A stretch of 64,000 nt of DNA. Source: Acidaminococcus sp. Its GTDB lineage: Bacteria; Bacillota; Negativicutes; Acidaminococcales; Acidaminococcaceae. The notes beneath the pieces are model-generated. The model ran no database searches. It saw nothing but the letters and a program-made list of their open reading frames with translations, and was not told the origin of the DNA. Shown here piece by piece: positions 5,460-51,504 of this stretch. Both the position numbers and the translations under genes were made by a program. The DNA lies in assembly GCA_022482815.1 (NCBI GenBank), contig JAKVOM010000001.1, positions 1,054,001 to 1,118,000 on the forward strand. The letters are read 5' to 3'. Numbering within the stretch: position 1 is the first letter of the stretch; every line of letters starts with the position of its first letter.

Positions 5460-5690
5460 ACAGGTGTAAAAAGCTAGAAAGTCTATCACCGGTAGAATAC
5501 GTCCACTGCAGTTATACGTACTAAAACCATAAGCTATTTCCCATCGGCAGGAAATGCCGAGGCAGCATTTTTTTGAGGAACGGTCAAATTATACGCTGCC
5601 GGCAGATGATTTTTACTTTCTTCAGCTAGGACTCATACAGTCCCTGTCAGGAGTTGCTCAATCTGCATTGACCTCTCTACCAATATAAAG
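5460..5690 (+). promoter_or_regulatory. Structured region upstream of dapF, unassigned leader
   Basis: The 400 bases between the ilvD T-box and dapF hold several pairable segments: TCGGCA-GGAAA-TGCCGA (about 5543-5559), GAGGCAGC with a later GCTGCCGGC (about 5558-5606), GACT-CATAC-AGTC, and CCAATATAAAGTAGAATTGG just before dapF. A T run follows GCAGCA at 5570, as in a conditional terminator. The mutually exclusive pairings suggest a regulatory leader. Some blocks (GCCGAGGC, and a later GCTGCCGGC) recall the lysine riboswitch core, but the other lysine motifs are not recognisable, so no class is assigned. Confidence 0.35.
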
Positions 5691-5746
5691 TAGAATTGGA
5701 AGATAACCAGTTATTTTCTACTAAATAATGAGGAGACATTCTGATT

Positions 5747-6622
5747 ATGAAATTACATTTTACAAAAATGCACGGCTGCGGCAACGACTATGTCTATGTG
5801 AACTGCATGGATAAGATGCTGCCGAATCCGGGTAAAATTTCCGAATATGTAAGCCCGCGGCACCTTTCAGTGGGATCAGACGGACTTATCTGCATCTGCC
5901 CGTCTGATAAGGCTGATTTTCGTATGCGCATGTTTAACGCCGATGCCTCCGAAGGCAAGATGTGCGGCAATGGTTCCCGCTGCGTGGCAAAGTATGTCTA
6001 TGATAAAGGCCTGACGGACAAAACGACGATTACCCTGGAAACGCTGAGCGGCATCAAGACGATTGCCATGAATGTGGAGGAAGGTAAGGTTACCGAGGCT
6101 ATGGTGGATATGGGTGAACCGATTACGGATACGCCCTCTATTCCGATGCGGTGGGACAAGCCGCAATGCCTCAATGAAGAGATTGAAGTCGAATTTGAAG
6201 GTAAAAAACTAAAAATTCGCGGCACGGCCGTATCTATGGGAAATCCGCATTTCGTCACGGTTGTGGATGACGTGGACAAGGCCCCTGTTACGACGCTCGG
6301 ACCGATCATTGAGCACTCTTCCTGGTTCCCGGAACGAGTCAACGTGGAGTTTGTACAGATCATTGATAAGAATCACGTGAAGTTCCGCGTCTGGGAACGC
6401 GGCAGCGGTGAAACCTATGCCTGCGGAACCGGTGCCTGTGCGGTGGCATATACCATGGTTACACTGGGACTTGCCGGTAAAAGGGATAAATTTTTGGAAG
6501 TCGGTGTTCTCGGCGGTACTTTGAAGCTGAAATATGGCAGCGATGGGCATATGATGATGCGGGGTCCTGCCACTACCGTCTATGAGGGTGAAATGGAAAT
6601 TCCTGACGAACTGCTTAAGTAG
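5747..6622 (+). CDS. dapF: Diaminopimelate epimerase
   Basis: Interconverts LL- and meso-diaminopimelate, the last step before meso-DAP enters peptidoglycan or is decarboxylated to lysine. The 291 residues match the family length. The two catalytic cysteines are visible in MCGNGSRC (near residue 75) and YACGTGAC (near residue 228), and the N-terminal F-x-K-M-H-G-C-G-N-D-Y signature is intact. Ribosome site AATGAGGAG precedes ATG 5747. The next gene on the same strand is dapL, which makes the substrate LL-DAP, so the two consecutive steps are neighbours with a 219-base gap. Confidence 0.97.
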   Translation: MKLHFTKMHGCGNDYVYVNCMDKMLPNPGKISEYVSPRHLSVGSDGLICICPSDKADFRMRMFNADASEGKMCGNGSRCVAKYVYDKGLTDKTTITLETLSGIKTIAMNVEEGKVTEAMVDMGEPITDTPSIPMRWDKPQCLNEEIEVEFEGKKLKIRGTAVSMGNPHFVTVVDDVDKAPVTTLGPIIEHSSWFPERVNVEFVQIIDKNHVKFRVWERGSGETYACGTGACAVAYTMVTLGLAGKRDKFLEVGVLGGTLKLKYGSDGHMMMRGPATTVYEGEMEIPDELLK

Positions 6623-6841
6623 GGGCAAGTTCGCGGCAGGATAGGGAAAAAAGTCTTGTCAGGTTCCTCTGAAAGACACAAAGTAAGAAAATCCTGCAAC
6701 CTTTTTGTGATTTTTTGTTTAATTGATTTGAAATCACGTTCTTCTTCTTATATAATGTAAAAAGCTGTAAAGCGATAACGTTAGTTAATCGAAACGATGT
6801 GTTTCCGTACAGCCAGTGAAAATGTGAGGGGGATTTGTTTT

Positions 6842-8041
6842 ATGGCATTAGTGAATGGTAACTATGCAAATTTGAAGGAAAGCTATCTTTTTTCTGATAT
6901 TGCAAAACGCGTTGCCGAATTTTCGGCAGCTCATCCCGATAAAAAAATCATTAAAATGGGGATTGGCGACGTAACGCTGCCGCTGGCCCCGACGGTCATC
7001 AAAGCCATGCAAAAAGCCGTTGAGGAAATGGGCCATAAAGAGACCTTCCGCGGATATGGTCCTGAGCAGGGCTATGATTTTCTGCACGAAGCTATCCAGG
7101 CATATTATGCCCGCCATGGTGTTGAAATCGGCACAAAGGAAATCTTCATCAGTGATGGTGCCAAAAGTGACTGCGGCAACTTGACCGACCTTTTCGATGA
7201 CAGCAATGTGATTTTGCTTCCGGATCCTGTGTATCCTGTATATGCAGATACGAACATCATGCGCGGCCGCAAAATCCTGTACATGAACGGCACTCCGGAA
7301 AACAATTTCCTGCCCATGCCGGATCCCAGCGTAAAAGCTGACATTATTTATCTGTGCTCCCCGAATAACCCGACCGGTGCTGCTTACAACCTGGAACAGC
7401 TCACTGAATGGGTAAAGTACGCCAAGGCTAATGACGCCATCATTCTGTTTGATGCAGCTTATGAAGCCTTTATCACGGATAAAGACATGCCGCACAGCAT
7501 TTTTGCCGTTCCTGGCGCGAAGGACTGCGCTATTGAAACTTGTTCTTTCTCCAAGACGGCCGGCTTTACTGGCGTGCGCTGCGGCTACACCATCGTTCCG
7601 GAAAATCTGACACGTAAGTCTCCGGAAGGCAAGGAACTGAATCTTAACAAAATGTGGCTCCGTCGCCAGACTACGAAGTTCAACGGTGTAAACTACATTG
7701 TGCAGCGCGGCGGTGAAGCGGCTATGCAGCCGGAAGGCGAAAAGGAATGCCAGGAGATGCTGGCCTATTATCGTGAAAATGCCAGAATCATGATGCAGAC
7801 CTTTGATAAGAAGGGTTACACGTACTACGGCGGTAAGTATTCTCCGTACGTCTGGCTGAAGTGCCCGAACAACATGAAGAGCTGGGAATATTTTGATTAT
7901 CTGCTGAATAAACTGGCTATCGTTGGCACGCCCGGAGCCGGATTTGGTAAGATGGGCGAAGGCTATCTGCGTCTGACGGCTTTCGGAAGCCGGGAAGGCA
8001 CAATTGAAGCTATGCAAAGAATTGAAAAAGATAGCTTATAA
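6842..8041 (+). CDS. dapL: LL-diaminopimelate aminotransferase
   Basis: PLP-dependent fold-type I aminotransferase that converts tetrahydrodipicolinate directly to LL-diaminopimelate, bypassing the succinylase and acetylase routes. It has 399 residues. The start is set at ATG 6842 because GAGGGGGA lies just upstream; the longer reading frame from 6797 adds an unconserved extension. Visible features are GIGDVTLPLAP near residue 40, YLCSPNNPTGAAY near residue 172, and the PLP lysine in CSFSKTAGFTGVRCGY near residue 237. It follows dapF, and a small exported protein gene starts 40 bases later. Confidence 0.96.
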   Translation: MALVNGNYANLKESYLFSDIAKRVAEFSAAHPDKKIIKMGIGDVTLPLAPTVIKAMQKAVEEMGHKETFRGYGPEQGYDFLHEAIQAYYARHGVEIGTKEIFISDGAKSDCGNLTDLFDDSNVILLPDPVYPVYADTNIMRGRKILYMNGTPENNFLPMPDPSVKADIIYLCSPNNPTGAAYNLEQLTEWVKYAKANDAIILFDAAYEAFITDKDMPHSIFAVPGAKDCAIETCSFSKTAGFTGVRCGYTIVPENLTRKSPEGKELNLNKMWLRRQTTKFNGVNYIVQRGGEAAMQPEGEKECQEMLAYYRENARIMMQTFDKKGYTYYGGKYSPYVWLKCPNNMKSWEYFDYLLNKLAIVGTPGAGFGKMGEGYLRLTAFGSREGTIEAMQRIEKDSL

Positions 8042-9373: not shown

Positions 9374-10513
9374 TTACTGGAAGTCTGCCTGACAGTACAC
9401 GCAGCGGCCATCTTTAAAGGTCATTTGTGGTACGAGAACCTGATGACCGGTAAAGGAATGACCATTGCAGTCCTCATAGGGAACGTCTTTTGTCTTGTGT
9501 TTCAAAATTACGATGTCGGCAGGCGTTCCCCTTTTCAGCGTTCCCAGTTCTTCGTGGTGGATAAGTCGTGCCGGTGTCAGGGTTGCTGCCTTTAGGACGT
9601 CTTCGAGCTTCATGCCGAAATCAACATATTTGGATAAAATACGGGGCAGGGAGTGGAGCGGCTGGAGAAACCAGCTGGATACGTTATTGTCAGAGCTGAT
9701 GATATCGGGATAGAAACCCTGTTTTATGGCCTTTTGGGCGACTTCTAAATCAAAGTTGCTCCTGCCATTGCAGGCATCAAAGAGTACGCCGCGCTTACGA
9801 GCTTTCCAGAGACCTTCCAGGACAGCTCCTTCTTTCGTCAGACAGGTGTGTTCTCCTTTGCCATGGAAGATATGACAAATGACATCGCCCGGGCGCAGAT
9901 AAGAGGCTAATTCATCAAGCGGAATCGGACAGTCTGTTACGTGTACAACCACGCGGGTTCCGACTTTTTCTGCAATTTCTACTGTTTTTTTGATAGACTT
10001 TCTGGCTAGTTCCGGAGATAAGATGTTGTTTGAAAGTCTTGTCTTGATCCCTACCAGATTATCGGGATAGCGGCGGAACAGCATAGCAATCTTTTCTTCG
10101 TCAAAATACCGGGGATCGAGATTTTCCGGGTAACGATCATTGGATTGACCGCCGGAAGCGATAAGGAGGCAATTAAGAATCCTTACGTCCGACATAGAAA
10201 GGATAGAACGGCGGTAAAGCTCGTAATTCCCGGCACCCGTTGTTCCGGCGTCGACGGCTGTCGTGATGCCTGTACAAAATGAGGTCGCATCGGGATTGAC
10301 TCCGTTTTCGCTTCCTCCCTCGAAGTAGTGGGTGTGATAATCAATGAATCCCGGACTGATGAGGCAATCGGCTGCATCAATGATTCTAAAATTTTTTAAA
10401 AGGGAAGCTGTCGGAAAATCAGAAATCATTCCGTTTACGACAGCCAGATCCCTTTTTACCCAACAATTTTGTTCAGTATCGTAAAGAGTTCCGTTCTTTA
10501 TAAGAAAATCCAT
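9374..10513 (-). CDS. Metal-dependent amidohydrolase/deacetylase (EF_0837/AHA_3915-like)
   Basis: A TIM-barrel amidohydrolase of 379 residues, probably cytoplasmic. The metal-site motifs appear in order: GFIDYHTHYFEGG near residue 56, a probable bridging lysine in GIKTRLS near residue 155, VVVHVTD near residue 192, ICHIFHGKG near residue 210, and ISSDNN near residue 273. The C-terminal LGTLKRGTPADIVILK is typical of dihydroorotase-like and N-acyl deacetylases. The substrate is not known. It follows the TRAP transporter genes on the same strand after a hairpin, so it probably hydrolyses an amide or cyclic compound imported by that system. Confidence 0.85.
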   Translation of the reverse strand: MDFLIKNGTLYDTEQNCWVKRDLAVVNGMISDFPTASLLKNFRIIDAADCLISPGFIDYHTHYFEGGSENGVNPDATSFCTGITTAVDAGTTGAGNYELYRRSILSMSDVRILNCLLIASGGQSNDRYPENLDPRYFDEEKIAMLFRRYPDNLVGIKTRLSNNILSPELARKSIKKTVEIAEKVGTRVVVHVTDCPIPLDELASYLRPGDVICHIFHGKGEHTCLTKEGAVLEGLWKARKRGVLFDACNGRSNFDLEVAQKAIKQGFYPDIISSDNNVSSWFLQPLHSLPRILSKYVDFGMKLEDVLKAATLTPARLIHHEELGTLKRGTPADIVILKHKTKDVPYEDCNGHSFTGHQVLVPQMTFKDGRCVYCQADFQ

Positions 10514-10598: not shown

Positions 10599-12932
10599 CT
10601 ATTTTGCCGCTTTTGTTTTTTGAATCGCTTCCATGAGCTGGTCGACAATTTCATCGCCTATATCACGGCGGACCATATCTTGTACAACTTTACCCTTCTC
10701 ACGAATTTCTTGTACGACGGAGGGTTCAAGCGTAATGATTTGATCACCTGCATCCATGCAAATCTGCTTATATTGTTTAATGCTGGCATCTGCCTTGGCA
10801 TTACCGTAAGCAGTGGCAGCAGCTGCGCATTCGTCGACCAATTGCCGGACGTTTTCAGGTAAGGAACTGTAGACATCCTTGTTCATGAAGAAGGTAATGA
10901 TATGGCCGATGTGATTCGTCTCAATAATGTATTTCTGAACTTCCTGGACATTATTCCCTACGATGTTCATGTAAGGATTTTCCTGTCCGTCAATCGTACC
11001 TTGCTGCAGTCCCATAAAGACTTCCGTGAACTGCATCGGTGTTGCGGCGGCACCGAGGGCGTCCCAATAAGCCAGGTGGTAGGGGTTCGTCATAACGCGG
11101 ATTTTCTGTCCTTTGAGGTCATCCAGTTTTCTTACAATCTTGTTGGTTGTGAGCTGACGGAAGCCTGCATCGGAATAGCCAAGCATCTGAATGCCGCCCG
11201 CATTGCAGTACTGGTTCATGACTTTCGGAAAATCCCCATTAAGGACGGCTCTCATTTGCGTTACATTATCAAAGAGGTTCGGAATATCAAAGACAGCATA
11301 CTGCGGAATGAAGTCAACCAAGTCTGTGGTCATGCCTGTCCCGATGTCGATGGAACCGCTGACTACGGCTTCCGTAAATTCGGTCGTGTTGCCAAGCTGT
11401 CCGCTCGGGTAAATATCTACCGTGATTTTACCGCCGGATTTTTGATTGATGAGATGAGCAAATTCGGCCACCATCTTGTAGTTGATGGAAGAATCCGCTA
11501 CCGTCATGGCGGCTCTCCAGTGATATTCGGCAGGAATGGAGCTCGGATCCATAGGTTTAATATCTTTACCATACGTGTCTGCATCCGCATCAAGAGCCGG
11601 TGTAGTGGCGGCAACGGCCTTGGTCGTATCTTTCGAAATGGCACTGACAAGGCCCATGGAAATGCCGGGAATATTGGTAATGAGCCCCAGGGAAATCAGG
11701 AAAGTGACGAGGAAGGGGACTACCGCGCGTGCCAGCTTGAGCATAGGAATCTTCGTCATGCCGGAAGCTACAAACAGGTTGATGCCCATAGGCGGTGTGA
11801 CCATACCGATGGCAAGGTTGCAGGTCATGATAATGCCGAAGTGAATCGGATCAACGCCCAGAGCTGTTGCTACAGGAACCATGATAGGCGTAAGAATCAT
11901 GATATTTGGAATATTGTCGATAAACATGCCGCAGACCAGCATGACAAGGTTCATAATCAGGAGAACGACGTATTTATTATCAGAGAGGGCAAGTACGCCT
12001 TCGCTGATGGTCTGCGGATAGCGGAGTAATGTCAGGACTTTGGCAAAAGCCGCCGCGGCAGCAATGACAAAGAGAATATTGACGTATGTCTTGGCGCCTT
12101 CCATGAATACGCGTCCCAAATCTTTGAGGGAAAGGGTATGATACACACAGATGCAGACAAACAGACCATAGAACACGCTGATAACGGCAGCCTCCGTAGG
12201 ACTGCAGACACCTGTATAGATGGTCCCCAGAATGATGACTGGGGTCATCAGGGCAAAGAAGCTGTCTTTAAAAAGGTTCCAGAGTCCATCTTTGTGGAGT
12301 TCTTCATAGCTTTCCTGCAGTTTTTCTTTGTCTTCGCCGTGTTTCCTGCAATAAATATAGCAATAGACCATGAGGGCCACGCCAATCAGGAGTCCCGGGA
12401 AAATGCCTGCGATGAACAGTTTTGACGGGGAGCAATTGGCAATAGAAGCGTAGACAATGTAGGAAATGGAAGGCGGGATAATAACTCCCAGACCTCCTGC
12501 TACTGTCACAATGGAGGTCGCAAAAATTTTATCGTAACCTTTCGAGACCAGGAAAGGAATGGTCATAGAACCAACTGCCGATACCGTTGCCGGGGATGAC
12601 CCGGAAATGGCCGCATAGAACATACAGGTTACAACAACAGCACAAGGGAAACCGGCTGTTTTGTTCCCGATAAAGTAGCCAAAGAAATTAAAGAGCTTCT
12701 TGGATATGCCGCCTCTTGCCATGATCATGCCGGAGACCATGAACATAGGAACGGCCAACAGGGTGAAACTATTAAGGCCGGAGAACATGGCTCTCGCCAC
12801 GTCGCTCACGCCAAAGGAAAAAGAACTGCTGGCAAGGTGAGGAACCATCGAGAGGAAGGAAAAGACGCCTCCGATAGGAAGGGCTGCGATGATCAGTGCA
12901 AATAAGATGAAGAAGAAAACCCCAATATTCAT
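10599..12932 (-). CDS. TRAP transporter fusion: DctM permease joined to DctP binding protein
   Basis: One uninterrupted reading frame of 777 residues. Residues 1 to about 435 are a DctM-type large permease with multiple membrane segments and motifs such as GGLGVIIPPSISYIVYA and GMFIDNIPNIMILTPIMVP. After a short linker (about 440-460) comes a complete DctP-type solute-binding domain (about 463-777), including SGQLGNTTEFTEAV, the conserved arginine in KIRVMTNPYH, and EVFMGLQQGTIDGQENP. The binding domain has no signal peptide of its own; the last permease helix would export it and anchor it on the outer face. DctP is normally a free periplasmic protein. The small subunit DctQ starts the operon, 17 bases upstream. 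A carboxylate-type substrate is inferred from the family. Confidence 0.92.
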   Translation of the reverse strand: MNIGVFFFILFALIIAALPIGGVFSFLSMVPHLASSSFSFGVSDVARAMFSGLNSFTLLAVPMFMVSGMIMARGGISKKLFNFFGYFIGNKTAGFPCAVVVTCMFYAAISGSSPATVSAVGSMTIPFLVSKGYDKIFATSIVTVAGGLGVIIPPSISYIVYASIANCSPSKLFIAGIFPGLLIGVALMVYCYIYCRKHGEDKEKLQESYEELHKDGLWNLFKDSFFALMTPVIILGTIYTGVCSPTEAAVISVFYGLFVCICVYHTLSLKDLGRVFMEGAKTYVNILFVIAAAAAFAKVLTLLRYPQTISEGVLALSDNKYVVLLIMNLVMLVCGMFIDNIPNIMILTPIMVPVATALGVDPIHFGIIMTCNLAIGMVTPPMGINLFVASGMTKIPMLKLARAVVPFLVTFLISLGLITNIPGISMGLVSAISKDTTKAVAATTPALDADADTYGKDIKPMDPSSIPAEYHWRAAMTVADSSINYKMVAEFAHLINQKSGGKITVDIYPSGQLGNTTEFTEAVVSGSIDIGTGMTTDLVDFIPQYAVFDIPNLFDNVTQMRAVLNGDFPKVMNQYCNAGGIQMLGYSDAGFRQLTTNKIVRKLDDLKGQKIRVMTNPYHLAYWDALGAAATPMQFTEVFMGLQQGTIDGQENPYMNIVGNNVQEVQKYIIETNHIGHIITFFMNKDVYSSLPENVRQLVDECAAAATAYGNAKADASIKQYKQICMDAGDQIITLEPSVVQEIREKGKVVQDMVRRDIGDEIVDQLMEAIQKTKAAK

Positions 12933-12949: not shown

Positions 12950-13459
12950 TTATTGGTCAATATCCCGGCCATTGTCTGCTTCTGTTTTTGCCTTGCCGGC
13001 GAAAAGGCGGTACAGAAGCTGTACGTAACGGATGATTCCAAGTGCAATTCCAAGAGCCATGAGACGGTAAAGGAATGCGACAGGGATGCGCAGTGCAGGG
13101 CTTGCCTGGTGAATCAGGGCGGCCTTCCCAATCAGTTCCCATGTTCCCTGGAGCAGGAATCCCAAGATGATAACCATAATGATGGAAATGGCAATTTCCA
13201 GGTACTTTTGCAGAGAGTCAGGAAGCATTCTGGTAAAGGTATCAACTTTCAGGCTGACGCCTCTTCTGATGGCACAGGGAAGACAGAAGAAAGCGGATAG
13301 TGCCAGCAGATAGCAGCATACCTCATCGGACCATGTCAGGGCGTGATGGAATCCGTAACGCATGACTACGTTCGTAAACGACAGGACGCACATGATGGCC
13401 AGCATTATGGCGAGCACCAATAGTTCAAAATTTTTTTCAAGCCAGTGCAGTACTTTCAC
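12950..13459 (-). CDS. TRAP transporter small permease (DctQ family)
   Basis: A membrane protein of 169 residues with four hydrophobic segments and the family motif VVMRYGFHHALTWSDEVC near residue 31. It is the small membrane subunit that pairs with the DctM domain of the next gene, which follows after 17 bases. A LysR regulator is divergently transcribed upstream, with a palindrome between the two that could serve as operator. Confidence 0.92.
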   Translation of the reverse strand: MKVLHWLEKNFELLVLAIMLAIMCVLSFTNVVMRYGFHHALTWSDEVCCYLLALSAFFCLPCAIRRGVSLKVDTFTRMLPDSLQKYLEIAISIIMVIILGFLLQGTWELIGKAALIHQASPALRIPVAFLYRLMALGIALGIIRYVQLLYRLFAGKAKTEADNGRDIDQ

Positions 13460-13537: not shown

Positions 13538-13613
13538 CTGACTTGATTAAAAGAAATAAACGTGATATTAATTTATCTTGAAAGTAATAAAACTACTAAT
13601 AAGGAGGACAGCT

Positions 13614-14588
13614 ATGGACATAAAGATGCTCGATTATGTGGTCATGATTGCCCAGTGCGGGAGTATATCCAAGGCTGCATCAAAACTTTACCTGACCCAG
13701 TCCGGCTTGAATCAGCAGCTGCTGAAACTTGAAAAACAATTAGGCATTAAATTGTTCGAACGGGATCACCATCATTTCAGAATTACGGAAGCGGGAAAGA
13801 TCTACGTGCGCAATGCCATGGAAATCCTGAGAATCCAGCGCAACACGCTTACGCAGCTGAGCGATATCAAAAATAATATGCACGCGGAGATTTCCATCGG
13901 CCTGACACATGAGCATGGAATCGACCTTTTTACGGCTGTCTATCCGACTTTTCATGAGCGGTATCCTCACCTCCGGTGTAAATTAGCAGAGCACATCGTG
14001 GCCGACCAATACGAACTTATTGAAGCAGGAGATTTGGATATTGGCATCGTGCTCACACAGGCTGATACGTACAAGAAAAATAAGGATCTGCGCTTTCACG
14101 AAGTCTACAGGGAGGATCTTTTACTGGGCGTTCCATTGAACCATCCCCTTGCCAAAAAGGCCGTTCCCATAGGAACGGGGCGTCCCCTTCGTGCCATTGA
14201 TATCCGTCTGTTCAAGGATGATCCGTTTTCCCTGATTTTTGAAGATTCAACCATGCGCAGGGAAGTCATTGACCCCATGTTTGAAGCAAATCATATGCAG
14301 CCGATCATCATGCTTGAGACGGCCATCAACACGGCGTTATCACAAATCGTAAGCAAGGGATTATCCTGTACAATTCTGCCGCATTCCCGCGTACTTGCCA
14401 GTCGCTATCGTGACGATTGCGCCTGGTTCCGGCTCTTGTCGAATCCAACCTGGAGTGTAGCTGTCGTCTATCGCAAAGATTATGTAGTAAGCCATTCCAT
14501 TTCTTACCTTATAGGGCTGATGGATGAGTATGGACAGGAAATGGAACAGAAATTCCTGGTCGAAAGCCCCGGGTATTTTCATGCATGA
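13614..14588 (+). CDS. LysR-family transcriptional regulator (TRAP locus)
   Basis: A regulator of 324 residues with an N-terminal winged helix-turn-helix (about residues 1-60, SISKAASKLYLTQSGLNQQL) and a C-terminal periplasmic-binding-like effector domain. ATG 13614 is chosen because AAGGAGGA ends seven bases upstream; the longer frame from 13578 has no such site. It is divergent from the TRAP-amidohydrolase operon and is most simply its regulator, sensing the imported acid or a breakdown product. Confidence 0.9.
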   Translation: MDIKMLDYVVMIAQCGSISKAASKLYLTQSGLNQQLLKLEKQLGIKLFERDHHHFRITEAGKIYVRNAMEILRIQRNTLTQLSDIKNNMHAEISIGLTHEHGIDLFTAVYPTFHERYPHLRCKLAEHIVADQYELIEAGDLDIGIVLTQADTYKKNKDLRFHEVYREDLLLGVPLNHPLAKKAVPIGTGRPLRAIDIRLFKDDPFSLIFEDSTMRREVIDPMFEANHMQPIIMLETAINTALSQIVSKGLSCTILPHSRVLASRYRDDCAWFRLLSNPTWSVAVVYRKDYVVSHSISYLIGLMDEYGQEMEQKFLVESPGYFHA

Positions 14589-48994: not shown

Positions 48995-50947
48995 TCAGTC
49001 TCCAACATTAGGAAGCGGACCACCCTGATTCTTTCTCTGCCACAGATAGCAGATAACCAGAATCACAACACCAGCGATATCGGTAACGGTACCAGGAATA
49101 ATCAGGCACAGGCCGCCAATGAAGAATACAATTCTTTGAATGGCATTCAGCGGATGTTCACAGAACCCGATCATAGCAAGGGACAAGCCCCACATACCGA
49201 TGATAGCGGTCACCATGGCAAGGATAATGGTCGGCGCCGTAGCGTTGATCATAAGCAGCTGAGGTGCCAGTACGAAAATGTATGGTACGACGAAAGCTGC
49301 AATAGCAAGCTTGGCAGCCGTGACACCGGTCTTCATCGGGTCGGAACCTGCGATACCGGAACCAGCATACGCAGCCAGCGCAACTGGCGGGGTTACGTCG
49401 GCAACGATGCCGAAGTAGAAAGCAAACATGTGGGCGGCAAGTACCGGCACATGCATCTGAATCAGAGCAGGCGCTGCAATAGTGGACGTAATGACGTAGT
49501 TAGCCGTTGTAGGAACGCCCATACCGAGAATCAGGGAAGTGATCATCGTAAAGAACATCGCCGGAATCAACTGGCCATGTGCCAGGTCAAGCAGAGCCGT
49601 GGCAAGCTTCAGACCAACACCGGTCTTGGTCACAACACCGATAATGATGCCGGCAGAAGCGCAGGCAATCAGAACGCCCAGTACGGACTGGGAACCATTG
49701 ATCAAGCCGTCAACAAACTGACGGAAGGTGATGCGCGTATTTTTTCTCAGGCAGGCGCAGACAATCGTAAGGCCGATAGCATAGAGAGCAGCACGCATTG
49801 GCGTATAACCGGTAACAAGCAGATATACGATAACGATAAGAGGAATAGCCAGATGGCCTTTTTCCTTCAGCAGAGGACCAATTTTCGGTAATTCTTCACG
49901 CGGAGTTCCTTTCAGGCCATATTTTTTGGCCTCATAGTGAACGCTCAGCCAGATGCCGGTGTAGTAGAGGATAGCCGGAATAACAGCTGCTTTAACTACA
50001 TCAATGTAAGGTACACCCACAAATTCTGCCATCAGGAAAGCTGCAGCACCCATGACAGGAGGCATCAGCTGACCGCCGGTAGAAGCGGCAGCTTCTACAG
50101 CTCCGGCAAAGGAAGGACGGTAACCTAACTTCTTCATCATAGGAATGGTGAAGGAACCGGTACCGGCAACGTTTGCTACAGAAGAACCGGAAACCGTGCC
50201 CATCAGGCCGGAAGAAAGTACGGCAACTTTTGCAGGACCGCCGACTGCCCAGCCCGCAATGGCGTTTGCCAGGTCAATAAAGAATTTGCCGAGGCCCGTT
50301 GCGTCAAGGTATGCACCAAACAGGATGAAGAGGTAAATGAAGGTGGACGATACGCCCATCGGTACCCCGAAGATTCCTTCGGTTGTGAAATACAGGTGAC
50401 CGACAAGTTCATCGAACCCAACGCCTCTGTGCGCCAGTACGCCCGGCATATATGGCCCCAGAAAGGCGTAGGCCAAAAAGACCAGTGCGACAGTCAGCAT
50501 CGGCCAGCCAACGGTGCGGCGGGTAGCTTCAAAGACGAGCAGGATACCAATAATACCCACAATAATATCCGTCTGTGTGTTCATACCGGCACGCGTAACA
50601 AGTTCCTTATAGTTAACGACCAGGTACATTGTCGCTCCGACAGAGAGTATTGCCAGGATTACATCCAGGGGATTCATCTTCTTGCGGGACCAGGATTTTC
50701 TGGCAGGGTACAATAAATAAATTAATGCAAGGCCGAAGCAAAGGTGGATGGCACGCTGCAAATGAGCGTCCAATACACCAAAGATGGCCGTATAAAGCTG
50801 GAAGACAGCGAAGAGGATACTTATGGCAGCAATAATATAATGCCACATCCCGCCAGGATTACGCTTATCCGATTCTTTATCGAACTTCTGCATGACCTCT
50901 TCCGCGGTCATTTCTGCTGGTTTTGTTTGTTTTTTTTCTTCAGTCAT
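48995..50947 (-). CDS. TAXI-type TRAP transporter fused permease
   Basis: An inner-membrane protein of 650 residues combining the DctQ-like small domain (about four segments, residues 30-150) and the DctM-like large domain. GVPMGVSSTFIYLFILFGAYLDATGLG near residue 190, GSSVANVAGTGSFTIPMMKKLGYRPSFAGAVEAAASTGGQLMPPVMGAAAF (about 252-305) and ILGMGVPTTANYVITST near residue 480 are signatures. ATG 50947 follows GGGAGG; the upstream ATG 50965 overlaps that site. It works with the TAXI binding protein two genes upstream; the DUF1850 gene lies between. TAXI systems import organic acids such as glutamate or oxoglutarate; the substrate here is not known. Confidence 0.94.
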   Translation of the reverse strand: MTEEKKQTKPAEMTAEEVMQKFDKESDKRNPGGMWHYIIAAISILFAVFQLYTAIFGVLDAHLQRAIHLCFGLALIYLLYPARKSWSRKKMNPLDVILAILSVGATMYLVVNYKELVTRAGMNTQTDIIVGIIGILLVFEATRRTVGWPMLTVALVFLAYAFLGPYMPGVLAHRGVGFDELVGHLYFTTEGIFGVPMGVSSTFIYLFILFGAYLDATGLGKFFIDLANAIAGWAVGGPAKVAVLSSGLMGTVSGSSVANVAGTGSFTIPMMKKLGYRPSFAGAVEAAASTGGQLMPPVMGAAAFLMAEFVGVPYIDVVKAAVIPAILYYTGIWLSVHYEAKKYGLKGTPREELPKIGPLLKEKGHLAIPLIVIVYLLVTGYTPMRAALYAIGLTIVCACLRKNTRITFRQFVDGLINGSQSVLGVLIACASAGIIIGVVTKTGVGLKLATALLDLAHGQLIPAMFFTMITSLILGMGVPTTANYVITSTIAAPALIQMHVPVLAAHMFAFYFGIVADVTPPVALAAYAGSGIAGSDPMKTGVTAAKLAIAAFVVPYIFVLAPQLLMINATAPTIILAMVTAIIGMWGLSLAMIGFCEHPLNAIQRIVFFIGGLCLIIPGTVTDIAGVVILVICYLWQRKNQGGPLPNVGD

Positions 50948-50976
50948 AAAATCACATCCTCCCATATCGTAAAACT

Positions 50977-51504
50977 TTACAGCATCCAGAATTCATATCG
51001 TTTCATGACTGTGACTTCAACCTTTGTGCCCTGTCCGTAGAGGCTGCACAAATCGTACGTCCGCCCATGATATGTGATGTTCGGCATGGCTTGTACAGCA
51101 GTCCGAAAAGTAACAGACTGATAAGGACGATTCATAATCATTTTGAACTTTCCTTCTTCCTTCAGACTGATAAACTCTCCTTCTGAAGCATCGTAGGGAA
51201 GCCCCACACCGAAAGATTCATAGATTGTATGAGTCATGGTCATATCGTGCGGACCATTGATACGAAAATATTCGTCGCAGGGAGTTTGTTGTACGGAATG
51301 CTTGTAATGATAGCGCCACTCCTCCCCAGGGTGGGTCTGCAGGACAATCGGTTCGCCCTTTTCAGGCAGGATCGTCAGGACATCCTGCGTTCCGTACCAG
51401 ACCGCTCCGCAAAGCACAAAAATCAATAAGATAATGAGGACAGGTTTCTGAAAAAAAGACCGAACCCCACTGGAGGGTGGCGTTCGGTCTATCTGATTCA
51501 ACAT
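50977..51504 (-). CDS. DUF1850-family protein of the TAXI-TRAP operon
   Basis: A protein of 175 residues with one N-terminal membrane segment (about 24-42) and a periplasmic beta-rich domain containing HPGEEWRYHYKHSVQQTPCDEYF near residue 78, typical of DUF1850. The family regularly lies between or beside TAXI-TRAP binding protein and permease genes, as here (20- and 29-base gaps), and is presumed to help the transporter. The exact role is unknown. Confidence 0.88.
   Translation of the reverse strand: MLNQIDRTPPSSGVRSFFQKPVLIILLIFVLCGAVWYGTQDVLTILPEKGEPIVLQTHPGEEWRYHYKHSVQQTPCDEYFRINGPHDMTMTHTIYESFGVGLPYDASEGEFISLKEEGKFKMIMNRPYQSVTFRTAVQAMPNITYHGRTYDLCSLYGQGTKVEVTVMKRYEFWML

Follow-up and report, generated by a model that had tools for sequence, protein, structure and literature searches.

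A single reading frame in the genome analysed here joins a TRAP-type permease to a complete binding protein. This locus raises the question of whether the two parts form a genuine fused protein and, if so, whether the binding domain stays attached to the permease it serves. In the usual description of TRAP transport a mobile binding protein is required, which loads, docks and leaves. The window, that is the whole 64,000-nucleotide stretch of DNA that was analysed, derives from a 3.06 Mb genome of the genus Acidaminococcus (class Negativicutes).

An earlier note on this DNA had claimed that permease (DctM, M) and binding protein (DctP, P) lie in one polypeptide, and this was borne out. The 777-aa product of one ORF matches the Pfam profiles DctM (residues 7-423, E 3.3e-103, 346 bits) and DctP (residues 475-751, E 1.2e-75, 255 bits), both near full profile length, and the NCBIfam models TIGR00786, NF037995 and TIGR00787 each score over their own cut-offs (for coordinates see Table 1). 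Inspection of the joint sequence revealed neither a stop nor a long single-base run, in agreement with the note, which had seen no frameshift-like tract there. No hydrophobic segment was found in the 51-residue interval that separates the Pfam matches, the last such segment being the last DctM helix (400-418); the DctP domain thus lacks a signal peptide of its own, as had been stated. DctQ (Q) was correctly described as separate, its ORF lying 17 bases upstream of the fused gene. The window holds DctM, DctQ and a DctP-family binder with the conserved arginine, as required of a DctP-type TRAP transporter (TC 2.A.56; PMC5812351), and the fused protein is of the kind known from Acidaminococcus intestini, with a whole DctP that lacks its own signal peptide joined in frame to DctM. 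Transporters of this type are characterised by Na+-coupled uptake that depends on a binding protein, which would be expected here as well. A second DctM-like ORF of 665 aa in the window (48998-50992, minus strand) probably encodes a fused-permease TRAP protein.

Table 1. Coordinates of the fused gene, its cassette and the tandem forms found in other genomes. The first seven rows give window positions; the last four give positions within the named locus.
Feature	Position	Strand	Remarks
Fused dctMP gene (DctM-linker-DctP), 777 aa, ATG start	10599..12932	-	single ORF
DctM permease part, residues 1-430	11643..12932	-	Pfam DctM; Foldseek 9pym_A, 7qha_B
Linker, about residues 431-468, variable	11529..11642	-	residues 436-446 below pLDDT 50 (AlphaFold2)
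DctP binding domain, residues 469-777	10602..11528	-	without own signal peptide; Arg612 invariant
DctQ small permease subunit, separate gene	12950..13459	-	Pfam DctQ, E 4.4e-23, 82 bits
Amidohydrolase, cassette member	9374..10513	-	NCBIfam PRK12394 metallo-dependent hydrolase
LysR-type regulator, divergent, cassette member	13578..14588	+	
M-P-P-P fusion, 1475 aa	L071:298-4722	-	genome G394
M-P-P fusion, 1126 aa	L070:1318-4695	-	
M-P-P fusion, 1134 aa	L072:1489-4890	-	
M-P-P fusion, 1095 aa	L035:4001-7285	+	Eubacteriales MAG

Fusions between TRAP components have been described before: Q-M fusions and rarer Q-P fusions are mentioned in PMC8276074, and a fused Q-M is given for about 25% of sequences in PMC10942642. 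A natural M-P fusion has been named for A. intestini (UniProt G4Q5D7; PMC9352664, 2022) and modelled there with AlphaFold, P being placed on the periplasmic face. It is like the window protein in genus and architecture, and the species alone differs. The A. intestini genome contains one such fusion, from which we infer that G4Q5D7 corresponds to locus L002/L036 of our set. The M-P fusion itself is thus already known from A. intestini, and the window protein is an ordinary congener.

Domain search and structure prediction, both proposed in the earlier note, recovered two domains and modelled both confidently. An AlphaFold2 model of the window protein, made from 42 related rows, reached a mean pLDDT of 86.9 and a pTM of 0.78 with both domains well formed. 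Among solved structures, Foldseek matched the first part best to the TRAP permeases IseQM (9pym_A) and SiaQM (7qha_B); the best matches of the second part were DctPAm (7bbr), a binder of sugar acids, and SiaP. TRAP M-subunits are described with 12 transmembrane helices in an N-out, C-out topology (PMC9971032). Since the C-terminus of DctM is, by homology, expected outside, the fused P domain should hang in the periplasm on a leash. Arg612 is an arginine in all 89 aligned P domains, including all 19 fused copies; it aligns with the arginine of the LRV motif of a SiaP, and PDB titles among the Foldseek matches mention R147 mutants. We take the LRV arginine to be Arg147 of SiaP, the carboxylate clamp. 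On this residue the substrate is expected, with low confidence, to be an organic acid, and the conserved amidohydrolase suggests, at an equally low level of confidence, that this acid contains an amide or ester bond open to hydrolysis. The nearest solved chain to this amidohydrolase is 8je0_A ('Amidase'), for which a literature search on the structure code 8je0 returned no paper; the amidohydrolase group cog3964 is presumably linked to deacetylation of acetyl-carboxylates.

A search of the source genome and 60 relatives yielded an uninterrupted fusion ORF in the source genome and in four other Acidaminococcus genomes (G003, G005, G006 and G007, with 92, 87, 83 and 83% identity), among them assemblies of A. 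intestini, whose orthologue is the 92% identical one, and A. fermentans. The fusion is therefore kept in five out of nine same-genus genomes examined, a full-length form being absent from G001, G002, G004 and G008 in this 61-genome search. Between the Acidaminococcus fusions the linker differs in sequence and by an in-frame indel of two residues, with the frame kept. The same open ORF in five genomes, together with this indel, excludes chance and assembly error. Nei-Gojobori estimates of dS were saturated or not computable for most pairs, and only the unsaturated pair L004/L005 is quoted, with dN/dS of 0.039 in M and 0.017 in P; in this one measurable pair the fused DctP appears to be under purifying selection. 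In three pairs with the window protein, dN of the linker was 0.18-0.39 versus 0.04-0.11 for M and P, and it was 0.000 in L004/L005. According to the earlier note, separate genes in close relatives, with a stop and signal peptide where the two parts meet, would reveal an assembly artefact. Both are indeed present in more distant orthologues (63-77% identity), but the five Acidaminococcus genomes keep the fusion; this combination shows a derived fusion and not an artefact.

The unfused orthologues came from one scan of a contig collection covering 84,980 species genomes, which returned 26 loci; L056 (25% identity) was set aside as a distant hit. The other 25 comprise four fused loci (L031, L032 and L036 of Acidaminococcus, and L035), one cut by the contig end (L047) and 20 unfused ones from clostridial, Synergistaceae and two Planctomycetota records, in all of which M ends at a stop and P follows as a gene of its own. 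The cassette is remarkably constant: a divergent LysR-type gene lies upstream in 22 of the 25 loci and an amidohydrolase like that of the window downstream in 21; of the remaining four, L047 and L054 stop short of this position, L055 runs on for 445 bases past P without it, and L052 carries a different ORF. Unfused cassettes such as L039 (Clostridia UC5.1-1D2), L040 (Enterocloster) and L045 (Synergistaceae) share orthologous genes, gene order and the divergent regulator with the window, but differ in the stop after DctM and in a DctP with its own lipoprotein-like or Sec-like signal. The P proteins of the unfused orthologues carry their own signal peptide, with a lipobox in 10 out of 20, all 10 being Bacillota records; this count is a reading of a short pattern match, and a chance match before the start codon in L052 was set aside. 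Three side observations were made at these loci. The cassette of L048 (Synergistaceae) includes two dctP genes side by side and unjoined (5488-6516 and 6551-7576), giving the order Q-M-P-P-amidohydrolase; dctM of Clostridium clostridioforme AGR2157 contains an in-frame stop (L033:4676-4678), reflecting either a pseudogene or a sequencing error; and the genome of L052 (G961, a Planctomycetota MAG) is unusually TRAP-rich, with 71 matches to the query M or P parts in 2.7 Mb.

Since half of the unfused P proteins carry the lipobox, a membrane-attached P is not unusual in this group, and the fusion is another, derived form of tethering. The statement of the earlier note that TRAP binding proteins are normally free thus holds in general but not, judged by the short pattern, for these 10 orthologues. 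Its conclusion that a tether implies a different delivery mechanism does not follow from tethering alone, as a lipobox P would be membrane-anchored anyway. What the fusion implies is that each permease has at least one dedicated binding domain covalently joined to it, provided that the attachment lasts.

To count fusions in other bacteria, ORFs were re-derived from stop to stop and scanned with our own M and P profiles, and duplicate loci were removed. This gave 14 fused proteins in 14 genomes, two of which (L058 and L059) are 98% identical: the five of Acidaminococcus, all M-P; L035; and eight of a group referred to as clade II. Clade II contains the M-P proteins L058, L059 and L060, which belong to family f15 of the same class as the window (Negativicutes), the M-P proteins L075 and L094, and the tandem forms L070, L071 and L072. 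L070-L072, L075 and L094 come from relatives of the L035 genome. In a maximum-likelihood tree of 89 M domains the five Acidaminococcus proteins (100/100) and clade II (100/100) form separate groups and L035 stands alone, so that three changes of fused state are needed, all three forced by well-supported branches. In the simplest reading, the fusion would have been gained three times; fewer gains combined with losses are possible in principle. Clade II's nearest unfused kin (L086-L090, L096-L099 and L120) carry P upstream, in the order P-Q-M, against Q-MP in the fused members. Simple stop loss therefore does not explain the clade II fusion, which probably needed a rearrangement.

M-P fusions are rare across the surveyed genomes. 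The sets surveyed overlap, with few candidates scored per genome and E-value cut-offs that hide distant cases. The survey of Negativicutes suggested by the earlier note found eight fused proteins in 380 genomes of the class at E <= 1e-60. Further sets gave five fused among 99 relatives of G380 (E <= 1e-80), six fused among 10 matching in 195 relatives of G394 (E <= 1e-120), three among four matching in 120 relatives of G219 (E <= 1e-130), and G395 itself as the sole fused one among six matching in 391 genomes of its class (E <= 1e-110). For 185 Synergistota genomes no fusion occurred among the rows listed, each row spanning M and P holding at least one stop (E <= 1e-100). At the Synergistota loci L125-L132, M and P are separate ORFs in all eight cases and the stop-to-stop ORF of P begins 3-12 bases past the end of M; the cut of E <= 1e-100 favours in-frame neighbours, and no conclusion on readthrough is drawn from this spacing.

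Several candidates that appeared fused were rejected. Five Synergistota frames longer than 800 without a stop in the match (866, 913, 913, 815 and 802) proved unfused. Separate M and P ORFs were found at L123 and at the four Synergistota loci L133-L136. The long frames of G004 (799) and G037 (787) run through a single stop and likewise consist of separate M and P ORFs, and the same arrangement was found at 13 loci (L102-L114) from G961, G319, G311, G317, G296, G282, G314, G280, G151 and G439. Two more frames whose match is interrupted by a stop, G297:C183 (700) and G475:C18 (689), were left out of the fusion count, and L116, a 1.3-kb flank, gave no domain match. A different combination was observed in a Negativicutes genome (G057), where a 757-aa ORF (L115:475-2745, plus strand) encodes a chemoreceptor signalling domain (MCPsignal, with a weak HAMP match) followed by a whole DctP; no DctM match was obtained for it, and its DctP sits C-terminally, on the side expected to be cytoplasmic.

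Four of the 14 fused proteins carry tandem binding domains, three as M-P-P and one as M-P-P-P, and Pfam finds the corresponding two DctP stretches in L035, L070 and L072 and three in L071. An AlphaFold2 model of L072 made with 15 rows was poor (pLDDT 66.6, pTM 0.42), and the tandem domains are assigned from sequence profiles. Copy identity inside a single protein amounts to 89-91% in L071, 89% in L072, 86% in L070 and 97% in L035. The first copy of L071 is nearest to the first copy of L070 (94%), which suggests that P was duplicated before L070 and L071 split, whereas the copies of L072 group together. The branches in question are not well supported, and repeated duplication or conversion among the copies is likely, though not proven. 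Over about 730 nt the DNA of the two L035 copies is the same, and their ends have diverged, which might reflect gene conversion or a short-read assembly effect, and its copy number is less sure than that of L071. In the non-subscription literature searched, we found no report of tandem DctP domains on a DctM.

We regard it as quite probable that the window encodes a DctP-type TRAP transporter in which the binding protein is now permanently part of DctM, as a domain on its periplasmic C-terminus. By parsimony, the cassette probably began as LysR / dctQ-dctM-dctP-amidohydrolase, in which dctM was immediately followed by dctP. The Acidaminococcus lineage would have lost the stop of dctM and the signal sequence of dctP, and the last DctM helix would now anchor and export the binding domain. 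P would then work on a leash of about 40 residues at the mouth of its own permease, where it may catch an organic acid with Arg612 as carboxylate clamp, dock on this permease when loaded, and pass on the substrate for transport by elevator motion, as is usual, together with DctQ. The steps of loading, docking and transfer would be those of the standard TRAP cycle; release would become local, and the effective concentration of P would no longer be set by the periplasmic pool. The next best P match in the same genome, among the matches listed, is 31% identical, so the fused domain is probably the sole donor to its permease. The same change would have taken place at least twice more elsewhere, the leashed domain then being multiplied to two or three in some members.

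Alternatively, the chain might be a precursor, cleaved by signal peptidase I at Val-Ser-Ala (429-431), just past the last DctM helix, that helix doubling as signal sequence and P being freed as in an ordinary TRAP system. Val-Ser-Ala is present in all five Acidaminococcus fusions though the linker behind it varies, and Leu-Pro occurs in 19 of 22 unfused tails where these fusions read Leu-Val. A-x-A or V-x-A is found within about 20 residues behind the M match in 11 of 14 fused proteins versus 2 of 22 unfused cassette tails, and three clade II members (L070, L071 and L075) have A-[LM]-A at that place. However, such motifs are expected by chance in linkers rich in alanine, the unfused tails compared are shorter and end at a stop, and L072, L058 and L059 have no such site. 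The usual signal peptidase cleavage region is shorter than 11-13 residues past the hydrophobic stretch, but the window site lies about that far past the end of the stretch or helix (418-420), inside a predicted helix (422-432); moreover, the joints between tandem P domains lack a helix that could act as signal. The motif check slightly lowered our confidence in permanent tethering, to the level given above, and slightly raised that in cleavage, which stays unlikely.

It is improbable that the fused DctP is vestigial or purely regulatory and that a free DctP from elsewhere feeds the DctQM part. Other DctP genes exist in the same genome (C1:1048591, 1053045, 1170721 and 291939), but their products are just 26-31% identical, and Arg612 and other conserved positions are retained in the fused domain, which also shows the signature of purifying selection in L004/L005. 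An artefact of assembly or sequencing that masks a stop codon, such as that found at the joint in the 20 unfused orthologues of other lineages, can be dismissed, the stop being absent from five independent genomes with 8-17% protein divergence, including A. intestini, whose fusion is already in print (PMC9352664), and A. fermentans.

A permanently tethered binding domain has counterparts in other transporter families. In the ABC importers GlnPQ (PMC8025302) and OpuA (PMC11065425) binding domains are covalently joined to the membrane domain, in GlnPQ in tandem, which invites comparison in terms of how they work. Those importers belong to an ATP-driven family with an unrelated membrane fold, whereas the window protein is a secondary TRAP transporter; an ABC-type membrane domain and an ATPase were not found in it, its Pfam matches being just DctM, DctP and a weak Na_H_antiporter. 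The TAXI-GltS fusions (PMC12344293) likewise join a binding protein covalently to a secondary transporter, but there the TAXI domain stands at the N-terminus of GltS, whereas in the window DctP follows at the C-terminus of DctM.

Taken together, we consider it fairly probable that the covalent TRAP transporter is a recurrent design. The M-P fusion would have arisen at least three times, in Acidaminococcus, in the L035 lineage and in the clade joining the f15 genomes with relatives of the Eubacteriales MAG; the L035 lineage and this clade would then have multiplied the leashed P to M-P-P and M-P-P-P, giving up to three dedicated binders per chain. The near-identical copies argue for capture rate and not for wider specificity, and such chains may be the TRAP counterpart of GlnPQ, raising the local capture rate with specificity not widened. 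A permanently leashed P, if true, would test the need for the binding protein to leave, would fix its stoichiometry and would offer structural studies a complex that is single-chain by nature. With the two- and three-domain chains, which would be of interest to transport specialists, GlnPQ-type ABC importers could be compared directly with a transporter that an ion gradient drives; the recurrent and multi-domain forms outside the window are the part that merits following up.
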